Source: a bacterium 336/3 (GTDB taxonomy: Bacteria > Bacteroidota > Bacteroidia > Cytophagales > Thermonemataceae). Taken from it: a DNA stretch of 64,000 bases. Position numbers and translations under genes: made by a program. The notes below the pieces were generated by a model. The model was given only the letters and a program-made list of their open reading frames with translations, had not been told where the DNA came from and did no database searches. Positions 56,089-57,756 of this stretch are shown here, in pieces (within the stretch, counting starts at the first letter, position 1; every line of letters begins with the position of its first letter). The stretch is taken from the NCBI GenBank assembly GCA_001281695.1, contig LJIE01000002.1, positions 124,001-188,000 on the forward strand. The letters run 5' to 3'.

Positions 56089-56841
56089 ATGGCAAACAAA
56101 TTATACGAACTTCTTGCAGTGGAGCAAGACCGTAAAAACAAAGCAAATGAGTCTTTAGGGGAAGCCAAGAAAATTTTCACAAAGAATGACCCTTATTTTG
56201 ATGGAATGATTAAGAAATATGTGGCAATAGAAGAAGATTCTGAACAAATTCCTGATGAAACCAAAGAAATGGTGAAAACAGTAAAGCAACAATTGGAAGA
56301 ATTGCAAGAGAATGTAGTTGCTGCCTTAGATGCTACCCTTTCCAAAGAAGAAACCAATGCTTCTAACACAGCCAAAGCTGAATTGGTAGTGGGTGATACA
56401 AGTTTTGGAACTTTTTCGGCTACTTCATTATTGGCTTTAGAATCGCATTTATCAAAAATTTTAGATTTATACCAAACTATTCCTGTCTTAGATTCTACAA
56501 GAAAATGGTCTTTTGATAACCAAAAAAGTGTTTATAAAACAGATGAAGAAGTTAAATTCAGAAGTATCAAACGCCCACAGGTAATTGTAAAATATGAGGC
56601 AACAGATAAACATCCTGCTCAAACAGAGTTGTTATATCTTGATTTTCAGGTAGGTAAATATGAAACTACTTATTTTTCAGGAAAATTAACCATTGCTCAA
56701 AAGAATGAGATCATCAAACGCCTTGAAAAACTAATGGAGGCTGTAAAAGTTGCAAGAGCCAAAGCCAATAGTGTTGAGGTACAAAATATTAAACTTGGAG
56801 ATAAAGTATTTAATTTTTTACATAAAGATATTTTATCTTAA
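56089..56841 (+). CDS. Conserved protein of unknown function upstream of the tRNA-like RNA array
   Basis: A 250-residue soluble protein. I see helical N-terminal segments (~1-85, with a coiled-coil-prone stretch near 55-80), then a mixed domain with YEATDKHPAQTELLYLDFQV (HPAQ at 175-178), and a helical C-terminal part, RLEKLMEAVKVARAKANSVE. This layout recalls a widespread family of unknown function that I associate with the label DUF7873, though I cannot verify the accession. It is closed by its own terminator and directly followed by two structured RNA units. It may be a binding or processing partner of those RNAs; this is inference from position. Confidence 0.75.
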   Translation: MANKLYELLAVEQDRKNKANESLGEAKKIFTKNDPYFDGMIKKYVAIEEDSEQIPDETKEMVKTVKQQLEELQENVVAALDATLSKEETNASNTAKAELVVGDTSFGTFSATSLLALESHLSKILDLYQTIPVLDSTRKWSFDNQKSVYKTDEEVKFRSIKRPQVIVKYEATDKHPAQTELLYLDFQVGKYETTYFSGKLTIAQKNEIIKRLEKLMEAVKVARAKANSVEVQNIKLGDKVFNFLHKDILS

Positions 56842-56856
56842 TATTATATTTATCTT

Positions 56857-56890
56857 AAAAGCCTCATTATCTAAATTAATGGGGCTTTTT
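56857..56890 (+). terminator. Terminator of the unknown-function gene
   Basis: AAAAGCCTCATTA (56857-56869) pairs with TAATGGGGCTTTT (56877-56889), allowing one T-G pair, and is followed by a T run. It separates the protein gene from the RNA array. Confidence 0.8.
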
Positions 56891-56919
56891 TGTTTTTATG
56901 AGATTTTCTATTAGATTTG
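56889..56919 (+). promoter_or_regulatory. Promoter of the first tRNA-like RNA unit
   Basis: TTTG at 56889-56892, a 19-bp spacer, and TAGATTTG at 56912-56919 form an almost ideal Bacteroidota promoter, the best in the window. Transcription should start near 56925. The -33 element shares its T run with the preceding terminator. Confidence 0.8.
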
Positions 56920-56974
56920 CTATACAGAGATAGTCTTATTGTTAGTATAAGCATCAAAACAATTTAGTGTATGC

Positions 56975-57036
56975 AGTATCAGCATACCTAAAAAATAAGT
57001 TTTAGTGTTTCGCTCTGCAGTTTTAGCTTAAATATC
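56975..57036 (+). ncRNA. Conserved 5' segment of RNA unit 1
   Basis: This leader part shares AGTATCAGC (56975-56983) and an AGTGTTTCGCTCTGCAG-like block (57004-57020) with unit 2 (57434-57442 and 57455-57472). GTATGC (56969) and GCATAC (56982) can form a small hairpin around AGTATCA. It contains no plausible reading frame. Confidence 0.55.
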
Positions 57037-57046
57037 TTCTACAAAT

Positions 57047-57176
57047 ATTGTTTTGTTTCAGCCTGATTGCATGGGTTCGAATCCCATCACCCCTACTTAT
57101 TATGTAAATATTTGTTTTATAGGGGTGTAGCTCAGTGGCAGAGCTAAGGTATGTCTATGTTATTCGGCAAAACAAT
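57047..57176 (+). ncRNA. Circularly permuted tRNA-like domain, Y-RNA-like, unit 1
   Basis: Order of elements: T arm ATGGG-TTCGAAT-CCCAT (57071-57087), acceptor 3' strand CACCCCT with A (57088-57095), a 24-nt linker, acceptor 5' strand AGGGGTG (57121-57127), TA, then D arm GCTC-AGTGGCA-GAGC (57130-57144). The acceptor pairs over 7 bp plus a closing T-A. T-loop TTC and D-loop GG, needed for the tRNA elbow, are kept. There is no anticodon arm. Instead, ATTGTTTTG (57047-57055) pairs with CAAAACAAT (57168-57176), closing the fold. This is the permuted geometry described for the tRNA-mimic module of bacterial Y RNA (YrlA). It is not a standard tRNA, and no tag-peptide frame marks it as tmRNA. Confidence 0.8.
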
Positions 57177-57203
57177 GGTTTGTGTGTTAGATGTAAAAAA
57201 TTT

Positions 57204-57277
57204 GGGTTTGTAGCTCAGTTGGTTAGAGCATCAGAATGACACTCAGAGGGTCATAGGTTCAACTCCTATCAAATCCA
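57204..57277 (+). tRNA. tRNA-Val-like cloverleaf, anticodon GAC, unit 1
   Basis: A 74-nt cloverleaf: acceptor GGGTTTG/CAAATCC with one G-T pair, D arm GCTC/GAGC, anticodon loop ATGACAC with GAC at 57238-57240, variable loop GGGTC, T arm ATAGG-TTCAACT-CCTAT, discriminator A. CCA is not encoded. The anticodon stem TCAGA/TCAGA has an A-A mismatch in its centre (57233 with 57245); a normal Val tRNA would have TCTGA. It lies 27 nt after the permuted domain and 3 nt before a G+C-rich hairpin, so it is the 3' part of one transcript. It may be a working Val tRNA or a tRNA mimic. Confidence 0.75.
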
Positions 57278-57280
57278 GCC

Positions 57281-57317
57281 GGGTGTGGGGAAGGTTAGAC
57301 CCCCACCCACTTTTTTT
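57281..57317 (+). terminator. G+C-rich 3' hairpin with conserved loop, unit 1
   Basis: GGGTGTGGGG (57281-57290) pairs with CCCCCACCC (57300-57308) with one bulge, followed by seven T. It works as an intrinsic terminator. The apical AGGTTAGA is identical in unit 2, although the stem sequence differs. Confidence 0.85.
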
Positions 57318-57352
57318 ATTTTTCTTGTATTTCCTATATATTTTTCTCACCT

Positions 57353-57367
57353 TAGCTTCTGAAGCTA
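57353..57367 (+). promoter_or_regulatory. Palindrome before unit 2, candidate operator
   Basis: TAGCTTC-T-GAAGCTA is a perfect 7-bp inverted repeat. It touches a weak -7-like TAGTTTTA (57366-57373), which lies at nearly the same distance from AGTATCAGC as the unit 1 promoter does in its unit. It may be where unit 2 transcription is controlled; no strong promoter is evident. Confidence 0.35.
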
Positions 57368-57502
57368 GTTTTAGTATTACATTTAGTTTTATCCCTTTCT
57401 GATTTCACCAGATGTCTACGAAACATTTTGGATAGTATCAGCGAGTTAGCTTAAGTGTTTTGCTTCACAGCCTTAGTTTTAATATTTTTTATATGTGATA
57501 TG

Positions 57503-57618
57503 TTATTGATAGCCTGACAGCATGGGTTCGAATCCCATCGCCCCTACTTTGTAGCTTTATATTTTATAGGGGTGTAGCTCAGTGGCAGAGCTAAGGTATA
57601 TGATTTTCAGAACAGTAA
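57503..57618 (+). ncRNA. Circularly permuted tRNA-like domain, Y-RNA-like, unit 2
   Basis: Paralogue of the unit 1 domain. T arm ATGGG-TTCGAAT-CCCAT (57522-57538), acceptor 3' strand CGCCCCT with A (57539-57546), a 20-nt linker, acceptor 5' strand AGGGGTG (57568-57574), D arm GCTC/GAGC (57577-57591). The acceptor change A to G keeps pairing as T-G. The closing stem uses different bases from unit 1: TTATTG (57503-57508) with CAGTAA (57613-57618), and CTGA (57514-57517) with TCAG (57607-57610). A ~35-nt stretch around the 5' acceptor strand and D arm is identical in both units. Changed but still paired flanks support a selected RNA fold. Confidence 0.8.
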
Positions 57619-57644
57619 TATAGACACTTATAAGGAATAACTGA

Positions 57645-57718
57645 TGTTTTGTAGCCCAACAGGTTGAGGCATTGGACTCATGATCCGAGACATGCAGGTT
57701 CGACTCCTGTCAAAACGA
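57645..57718 (+). tRNA. tRNA-Met-like cloverleaf, anticodon CAT, unit 2
   Basis: A 74-nt cloverleaf: acceptor TGTTTTG/CAAAACG with a terminal T-G pair, D arm GCCC/AGGC with a C-A mismatch, anticodon stem TTGGA/TCCGA, loop CTCATGA with CAT at 57679-57681, variable loop GACAT, T arm GCAGG-TTCGACT-CCTGT, discriminator A, no CCA. The weak acceptor end and D stem are not those of a usual elongator Met or Ile tRNA. It occupies the same place in unit 2 as the Val-like tRNA in unit 1. It may be a specialised tRNA or a mimic. Confidence 0.7.
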
Positions 57719-57719
57719 C

Positions 57720-57756
57720 GGGCGGGGGATTAGGTTAGAACCTCCGCCCATTTTTT
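57720..57756 (+). terminator. G+C-rich 3' hairpin with conserved loop, unit 2
   Basis: GGGCGGGGG (57720-57728) pairs with CCTCCGCCC (57741-57749), followed by six T. The loop contains AGGTTAGA (57732-57739), the same as in unit 1. Confidence 0.85.

Follow-up and report, generated by a model that had tools for sequence, protein, structure and literature searches.

Which RNA-protein system, if any, do two consecutive tRNA-like RNA units and the protein gene in front of them represent in the Cytophagales bacterium 336/3? The locus lies at positions 56,089 to 57,756 of a 64,000-nucleotide (nt) stretch of GenBank assembly GCA_001281695.1 (contig LJIE01000002.1; C2:124001-188000 within a 4.71-Mb assembly), the whole of which is called the window here. 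An initial annotation, made from the letters alone, had described two paralogous units, each with a permuted tRNA-like fold that lacked an anticodon arm and was closed by pairing flanks, followed by a complete cloverleaf (anticodon GAC or CAT) and a G+C-rich hairpin. It had compared the units with bacterial Y RNAs, had seen no TROVE gene, had called the 250-residue neighbour protein one of unknown function and had proposed a distinct RNA-protein system, to be checked by covariation and by whether homologues keep the order of the parts beside the same protein family. The protein does have a family assignment, Pfam DUF7873 (PF25283; 278.5 bits versus a gathering score of 27, E = 7e-83). We read the DUF7873 protein and the RNA as a two-part ribonucleoprotein (RNP) that mimics tRNA, an explanation to which, taken whole, we give a probability of about 0.6; that the two form a real RNA-protein partnership distinct from Ro60 and its Y RNAs we regard as very likely. 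The pair looks like a previously unrecognised one, present in several bacterial groups and in phages, and an open-access literature search, whose coverage leaves out many journals, found no paper naming DUF7873 and nothing recognised as a DUF7873/RNA system.

Conservation of the RNA with DUF7873

In both window units the arms of the permuted module (domain B) follow the order T-arm, 3' acceptor strand, loop, 5' acceptor strand, D-arm. We searched for this arrangement with a detector script whose sole requirement was that T, acceptor and D arms pair and follow one another in permuted order. It covered the 700 nt 3' of each DUF7873 gene, a limit beyond which window unit 2 extends. The 88 loci comprised 35 from the order set and 34 from the GTDB set, which share some genomes, together with 11 IMG/VR, 6 phage and 2 plasmid loci. 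A module was found in 48 of the 88 loci, in Bacteroidota, phages and Streptomyces plasmids (15/35 order, 19/34 GTDB, 6/11 IMG/VR, 6/6 phage and 2/2 plasmid loci), compared with 0 of 4,400 shuffles, and on the 5' side it was found in only two (L191, where it lies within a phage's annotated tRNA array, and the viral contig L187). The association is confirmed to exceed chance, and many homologues of the RNA do sit beside the same protein family. At L101 and L153 the searchable stretch was limited to 322 and 310 nt, respectively, and L181 and L183 were counted as misses although variant modules were read there by eye. The 53 detector hits reduced to 48 distinct cores.

A covariance model built from 25 domain B sequences (alignment A3, described below) was run on the 390 genomes of the order set, with at most nine candidates per genome scored under strict filters; DUF7873 itself was present in 31 of these genomes by profile search. 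Matches of at least 75 bits, a line chosen after the list was seen, occurred in 24 of the 31 DUF7873 genomes versus 1 of the 359 others (Fisher p = 5e-31), the lone exception (G169) being 79% complete and of the same genus as two DUF7873 genomes. The raw tally, 389/390 genomes at E <= 0.001, is uninformative because ordinary tRNAs match the model. In 12 of the 24 genomes (G028, G037, G043, G057, G083, G090, G108, G116, G121, G128, G145 and G177) the RNA lies away from DUF7873, on another contig or ~76-151 kb off, and none of the sequences from these genomes is in the model. When the 12 genomes that have an adjacent strong RNA were left out, the contrast persisted at 12/19 versus 1/359 (p = 4e-17). 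Counting the 14 genomes with adjacent modules and the 12 with non-adjacent ones, 26 of the 31 DUF7873 genomes carry the RNA. In 15 further loci (those of the 12 non-adjacent genomes, extra copies in G103 and G052, and that of G169), domain B is followed by a cloverleaf in 15/15, so the order is kept. Adjacency in 48/88 loci, co-occurrence when the two are apart and this kept order support the distinct system proposed at the outset. Cis-regulation of DUF7873 by the RNA was considered as well and rejected, given the distances in the 12 genomes.

Layout and structure of the two RNA units

The features of the locus, all on the + strand, are as follows; C74 denotes the nucleotide after the discriminator (N73), and A4 the alignment of full-length RNAs.

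56089..56841, +: DUF7873 (PF25283) protein gene, 250 aa, proposed protein partner (open reading frame (ORF) with the PF25283 match given above)
56859..56891, +: terminator-like hairpin and T-run 3' of the DUF7873 gene (sequence reading)
57000..57033, +: unit 1 conserved 5' element, AG repeats around UUCGCUC (conserved columns in A4)
57071..57144, +: unit 1 permuted tRNA module (domain B), with T-arm 57071-57087, acceptor 3' strand 57088-57094, loop 57095-57120, acceptor 5' strand 57121-57127 and D-arm 57130-57144 (5/5, 7/7 and 4/4 arm pairs; covariation; C74)
57203..57280, +: unit 1 cloverleaf (domain A), anticodon GAC (ARAGORN Val(gac); RF00005 63.7 bits, gathering score 29)
57281..57317, +: unit 1 terminator hairpin with AGGUUAG loop and T-run (sequence reading; the hairpin covaries in A4)
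57446..57482, +: unit 2 conserved 5' element, UUUUGCUU variant (A4)
57522..57591, +: unit 2 permuted tRNA module (domain B), with T-arm 57522-57538, acceptor 57539-57545 with 57568-57574, loop 57546-57567 and D-arm 57577-57591 (permuted-arm detection)
57645..57719, +: unit 2 cloverleaf (domain A), anticodon CAT (ARAGORN Met(cat); RF00005 48.8 bits, gathering score 29)
57720..57756, +: unit 2 terminator hairpin with AGGUUAG loop and T-run (sequence reading; covariation in A4)

Both paralogous units were thus present where they had been described, both cloverleafs passed the tRNA cut-off, and the G+C-rich hairpin after each, as read from the sequence, carries a T-run. Because a terminator-like hairpin with a T-run follows the DUF7873 gene, the RNA may be a separate transcription unit. 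The only family over its cut-off in an Rfam scan of the window was tRNA. Folding energies of the two window RNAs relative to chance gave z values of -2.15 and -3.10, and the covariance model scored the modules of units 1 and 2 at 91.5 and 92.0 bits, respectively, both being among the model's own sequences. A second DUF7873 gene of the source genome (C4:24801-25559) also has a module downstream; over C4:24801-25568 the protein search placed one TAA within the aligned stretch, while the profile search placed none.

Alignment A3 contained the two window units and 23 of 38 short-loop reference modules (n = 25), omitting the near-duplicates L110, L111 and L163, the reference L082, identical to window unit 1, as well as 11 actinobacterial and Vibrio modules. 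In A3, 99.8% of arm cells were paired, both-sided changes occurred in 13 of 16 pairs, and the covariation score was 0.837 versus 0.197 for shuffled and at most 0.150 for slid alignments, figures that are inflated by the fact that the sequences had been picked by a detector demanding most arm pairs. Since the detector had helped to choose these sequences, we tested a stem that it does not use, an anticodon-like stem between the flanks of domain B, and found 5/5 pairs in 30 of 48 units (best of 15 registers), whereas 2,000 shuffles of the partners gave 7.3 such units on average and 16 at most. The permuted fold therefore stands as annotated, but the flanks can form the anticodon-like stem that it had been said to lack. 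In the 24 full-length RNAs of A4, double changes were seen in 31 of 44 predicted pairs, and the alignment recovered the arms of domain B, the acceptor and T arms of domain A and the terminator hairpin. Judged by these substitutions the RNA structure is under selection, and the covariation whose absence the initial annotation had said would refute it is present in module and full-length RNA alike. Closure by pairing flanks held on average (mean duplex energy -24.2 versus -18.0 kcal/mol) and not unit by unit: this outer pairing reached p <= 0.05 in just 16 of 48 units, with window unit 1 at p = 0.06, which counts against the two-part RNP.

Two sequence motifs accompany the fold. Among 63 units (the 48 distinct modules and the 15 further loci), 39 had T[TC]GCT[CT] in the 130 nt before the T-arm (36 of them at 60-72 nt), compared with 1236 of 6300 shuffles, and 25 had AGG[TC]TAG within 230 nt, compared with 204 of 6300 shuffles.

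A tRNA 3'-end signature in the acceptor loop

The loop joining the acceptor strands, which ranged from 7 to 222 nt over the 53 hits, begins A-C (N73-C74) in both window units, and position 74 was C in 48 of 48 distinct modules. Of 29 other tRNA-model matches in the source genome, 28 encoded C74 and just 2 the complete CCA; these 29 came from the 30 best of 64 tRNA matches with the window unit excluded, and some of them are tRNA-like genes of Ro60 and other arrays. Modules adjacent to TROVE had C74 in 6 of 23 cases and loops of 3-16 nt (searched to 60 nt). From the encoded C74 we infer that the loop would be cut by tRNA-processing enzymes and the end completed with CCA. We lean slightly towards the outcome that this would have, a tRNA mimic in two pieces, nicked and attached to the remainder of the RNA by its anticodon stem. 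Two-piece permuted transfer-messenger RNAs (tmRNAs) are established (PMC3978253).

The DUF7873 protein

Membership in PF25283 was confirmed in 10 of 10 tested proteins (from phages, one plasmid and one Bacteroidales metagenome-assembled genome), and the family matches 88 phage records. An AlphaFold2 (AF2) model of the window protein had a mean predicted local distance difference test score (pLDDT) of 83.1 and a predicted template modelling score (pTM) of 0.69. Foldseek returned no match to the Protein Data Bank (PDB) at E <= 0.001 (best E 0.11) and none to a viral structure library (best E 3.4e-3, template modelling score 0.17), so that assignment to a known fold was rejected; its low-probability matches include Cascade subunits. 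Assignment to a defence, NCBIfam or PHROG family was likewise rejected, as matches were weak (PADLOC best E 8.7e-4; NCBIfam best E 0.0057; PHROGs E 0.038 with the window protein, five phage DUF7873 proteins giving no match).

Phages, plasmids and domain order

We examined 13 of the 88 phage records and 2 of 4 plasmid records. The module lay 3' of DUF7873 in 10 of the 13 phage loci, with one more doubtful; the seven loci added to the original six contributed four convincing cases, one doubtful and two without a module. In Rhizobium phage RHph_TM61, Arthrobacter phage Mimi, Gordonia phage Phendrix and Rhodococcus phage NiceHouse the DUF7873 gene stands inside a tRNA array, and in six annotated phage loci the position of the module carries no tRNA annotation. 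Band-7 was seen as a partner in 1 of 12 phage and plasmid records with DUF7873 and the module (Rhodococcus phage NiceHouse), and both it and TROVE, each in 1/12 records, were rejected as common phage partners.

The arrangement of one permuted and one normal domain per RNA, which the initial annotation had proposed, describes the window and most of the Bacteroidota loci read, where domain A is mostly in normal order 3' of B. It does not describe the actinobacterial phage and Streptomyces plasmid loci, in which two permuted domains were read in tandem with a similar UCGCUC-type motif in the linker, nor the DUF7873-adjacent RNAs of G052 and G103, in which both domains were also read as permuted. 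The RNA thus seems to have been rearranged between groups with its two tRNA shapes kept. Two units per locus are not a rule.

Relation to Ro60 and alternative explanations

Were the RNAs Y RNAs bound by the genome's own Ro60/TROVE, encoded elsewhere, the arm order would be accounted for: the YrlA model (RF02553) aligns to both window modules with the same permuted T-acceptor-D order. The scores of 28.1 and 26.9 bits, however, stay below the gathering score of 69, and over the source genome RF02553 is non-discriminating, as 13 of 14 control genomes also have matches at E <= 10. A TROVE gene does exist in the source genome (C1:3343459-3344190, outside the window), so its reported absence holds for the neighbourhood and not for the genome. 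TROVE is, moreover, enriched with DUF7873 (17/31 versus 75/359 genomes, p = 9e-5), whence the two systems may cooperate; several covariance matches of ~55-74 bits lie within a few kb of TROVE. A control genome, Deinobacterium chartae, matches both profiles. Yet TROVE was not found in 14 of the 31 DUF7873 genomes, including one that is 99% complete and carries the RNA (G021). Among module-bearing records it was not found in either plasmid or in 9 of the 10 phages, where a host could supply it, and although 75 of the 359 genomes without DUF7873 have TROVE, matches of at least 75 bits occur in 1 of the 359. The short acceptor loop without a tRNA 3' end that is typical of TROVE-adjacent units is also not what the DUF7873 modules have (C74 in 48/48 versus 6/23). 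We consider this explanation improbable. That the RNA works like a Y RNA is plausible by analogy, but that it is one is not supported: the comparison made at the outset is apt for the arm order and fails as membership on score, on the lack of an obligate Ro60 and on the tRNA-like 3' end. Kinship with tmRNA, in which a permuted two-piece tmRNA-like RNA would have DUF7873 in the role of SmpB, strikes us as very improbable. The tRNA 3'-end signature in the loop and partial beta_tmRNA and tmRNA_permuted matches over the T-arm, acceptor and loop speak for it, as does the existence of the two-piece permuted tmRNAs noted above. These matches are confined to the tRNA-like part and fall below cut-off (unit 1, 27.0 versus 84 bits for RF01850 and 26.7 versus 47 for RF04321; unit 2 lower), the module has a canonical D-arm, and another RNA in the source genome fits the full ordinary tmRNA model at 137.7 bits.

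Two further explanations start from ordinary tRNA genes. Domain A could be a functional tRNA whose precursor carries the permuted module as a processing or stability tag, with DUF7873 a tRNA chaperone for such arrays. Domain A is indeed a good tRNA, it lies 3' of B in 15/15 further loci, CAG is the commonest anticodon there (7 of 22 cloverleafs), and in phages DUF7873 stands among tRNA genes. The remaining anticodons vary, however, domain A is itself permuted (by reading) in actinobacterial phage and plasmid loci, and ARAGORN assigned four-base anticodons to 7 of the 22 cloverleafs, with ttcc in one domain A copy each of G108, G028, G145, G121 and G083 (L203, L207, L209, L210 and L214) and other readings in G057 and G145. 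Such anticodons, as predicted, argue against charging or decoding for those copies, and we regard the precursor explanation as unlikely. That the modules are debris of tRNA genes, or tandem tRNA genes mis-parsed as permuted, is barely credible to us. Tandem tRNAs do seem to yield covariance matches (overlapping ones in G040, G162 and G171, and one of 74.2 bits in L190), and phage tRNA arrays produced extra detector hits; but debris would not lead one to expect double changes in 13 of 16 pairs, co-occurrence with DUF7873, a module with a cloverleaf in every further locus or the lack of tRNA annotation at the six phage modules.

The TROVE gene of the source genome is itself preceded by nine tRNA-model cloverleafs interleaved with permuted Y-like modules (L003 9320-12300, C1, minus strand), two of the latter found by the detector and more by eye. 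R2K ATP-grasp, 2OG-Fe(II) oxygenase (AlkB-like), RNA ligase and PcfJ-like genes lie around this array.

A proposed mechanism and the points against it

In the two-part RNP that we favour, the RNA is, as its sequences show, conserved and structured. It has a 5' AG-repeat element and two tRNA domains, the permuted B and a second one, A, and in many cases it carries a terminator too. Tentatively, and with less confidence than for the nicked domain B itself, we suggest that DUF7873 binds this RNA, perhaps at the AG-repeat element, and offers both tRNA shapes to the ribosome or to enzymes that handle tRNA. Most likely it would do so as a bait or scaffold by which the tRNA pool stays functional when tRNAs are damaged or phages attack. 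The role would probably be one of protecting or policing tRNAs. A bait or scaffold role would explain the place of the DUF7873 gene in phage tRNA arrays. For YrlA, competitive inhibition of an anticodon nuclease has been suggested (PMC7790460), and by analogy such competition would fit the DUF7873 RNA. It is possible, though we put it at somewhat below even odds, that a Ro60-independent class of tRNA-mimic RNPs exists in bacteria and large phages. In it DUF7873 would hold the RNA, which tRNA enzymes would have matured into a nicked double tRNA with a CCA end, and this product, perhaps aminoacylated, would act on the ribosome or on enzymes that cleave or repair tRNA. If the explanation is true, the short list of proteins that have a tRNA-mimic RNA of their own grows by a second, unrelated family, permuted tRNA architecture reaches beyond Y RNAs and tmRNA, an uncharacterised family present in 88 phage records gains a role, and the retention of such an RNA within the tRNA arrays of several large phages becomes a question open to experiment.

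Several results weigh against the two-part RNP. The putative RNA-binding protein has a predicted model that matched no solved fold. The module was not within 700 nt in 20 of 35 order loci and 15 of 34 GTDB loci, and at L180 the D-arm of the detector hit looks spurious, although the covariance model finds a module at the same T-arm (43.8 bits). It was not seen at the Microcoleus, Lak-B3 or IMG/VR L186 loci, nor on two IMG/VR contigs sharing Lak-B3's downstream sequence, and Pseudanabaena is the doubtful case. Five of the 31 DUF7873 genomes (G005, G123, G140, G160 and G185) have neither an adjacent RNA nor one of at least 75 bits, the best scores in G160 and G005 being 68.2 and 64.9 bits, and the co-occurrence p values, which depend on at most nine strictly filtered candidates per genome and on a post hoc line, take no account of phylogeny. 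Adjacent normal phage tRNAs can mimic a permuted module, as the extra detector hits demonstrate, and would carry C74 too. Vibrio and actinobacterial modules score no more than 21.6-50.9 bits with the covariance model, and a run of tandem tRNAs in a Rhizobium phage (L190 10233-10341) scores 74.2 bits; kinship across phyla therefore rests on architecture and DUF7873, not on the covariance model.

Other tRNA-like arrays in the source genome

Four additional arrays were noted. At L049 1240-1960 (C1:2133240-2133960), four normal-order cloverleafs were seen by eye, two of them called by the tRNA model; their anticodon arms hold long inserts with a recurring AAGGTCAA...CTTACTTC...AATTACC pattern. The ORF that immediately follows them is at least 667 aa long and gave no hit beyond a weak one to RING. 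Two tandem tRNA-Trp(cca)-like cloverleafs (L040/L041, C1:3716764-3716934), a possible tRNA-like leader, lie just upstream of an ORF which, from its sequence, we take to be anthranilate synthase component I. Six tandem leucine-type tRNA-like genes (L048 1227-1743, C2:110726-111241) stand just upstream of a 169-aa ORF with no Pfam hit, and an Asn(att), Asp(gtc), Gly(gcc), Val(aac), Ser(gct) tRNA-like array (L050 1283-1751, C1:1003282-1003749) lies beside a 454-aa ORF.

Comparison with known systems

In 2016 Burroughs and Aravind reportedly described a Band-7/SPFH-associated noncoding RNA that is tRNA-like and is encoded beside a protein in the context of RNA repair, which would liken it to the DUF7873 RNA; Band-7 occurred in 1 of the 12 phage and plasmid records with DUF7873 and the module. 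Circularly permuted tRNA genes likewise encode the 3' half before the 5' half, and are religated to a normal tRNA (PMC3978253), unlike the DUF7873 RNA, in which the anticodon end leads into long, conserved flanking sequence and the same strand goes on to form another tRNA domain. Permuted two-piece tmRNA (RF01850, RF04321) is alike in that the loop between its acceptor strands bears a tRNA-like 3' end and the DUF7873 RNA, too, is likely in two pieces; the latter differs in its canonical D-arm, its anticodon-like stem and its second tRNA domain, and no tag is known for it, no search for a tag frame or SmpB having been made. Bacterial Y RNA with Ro60 (YrlA, RF02553) shares most with it, namely permuted T, acceptor and D arms on a flank stem, an RNA with a dedicated protein and a frequent location near tRNA or RNA-repair genes. 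In contrast to Y RNA, the DUF7873 RNA co-occurs with DUF7873 and not with TROVE, strong matches to it being absent from TROVE-only genomes, and it has N73-C74 in its acceptor loop, an AG-repeat/UCGCUC element and a second tRNA domain.

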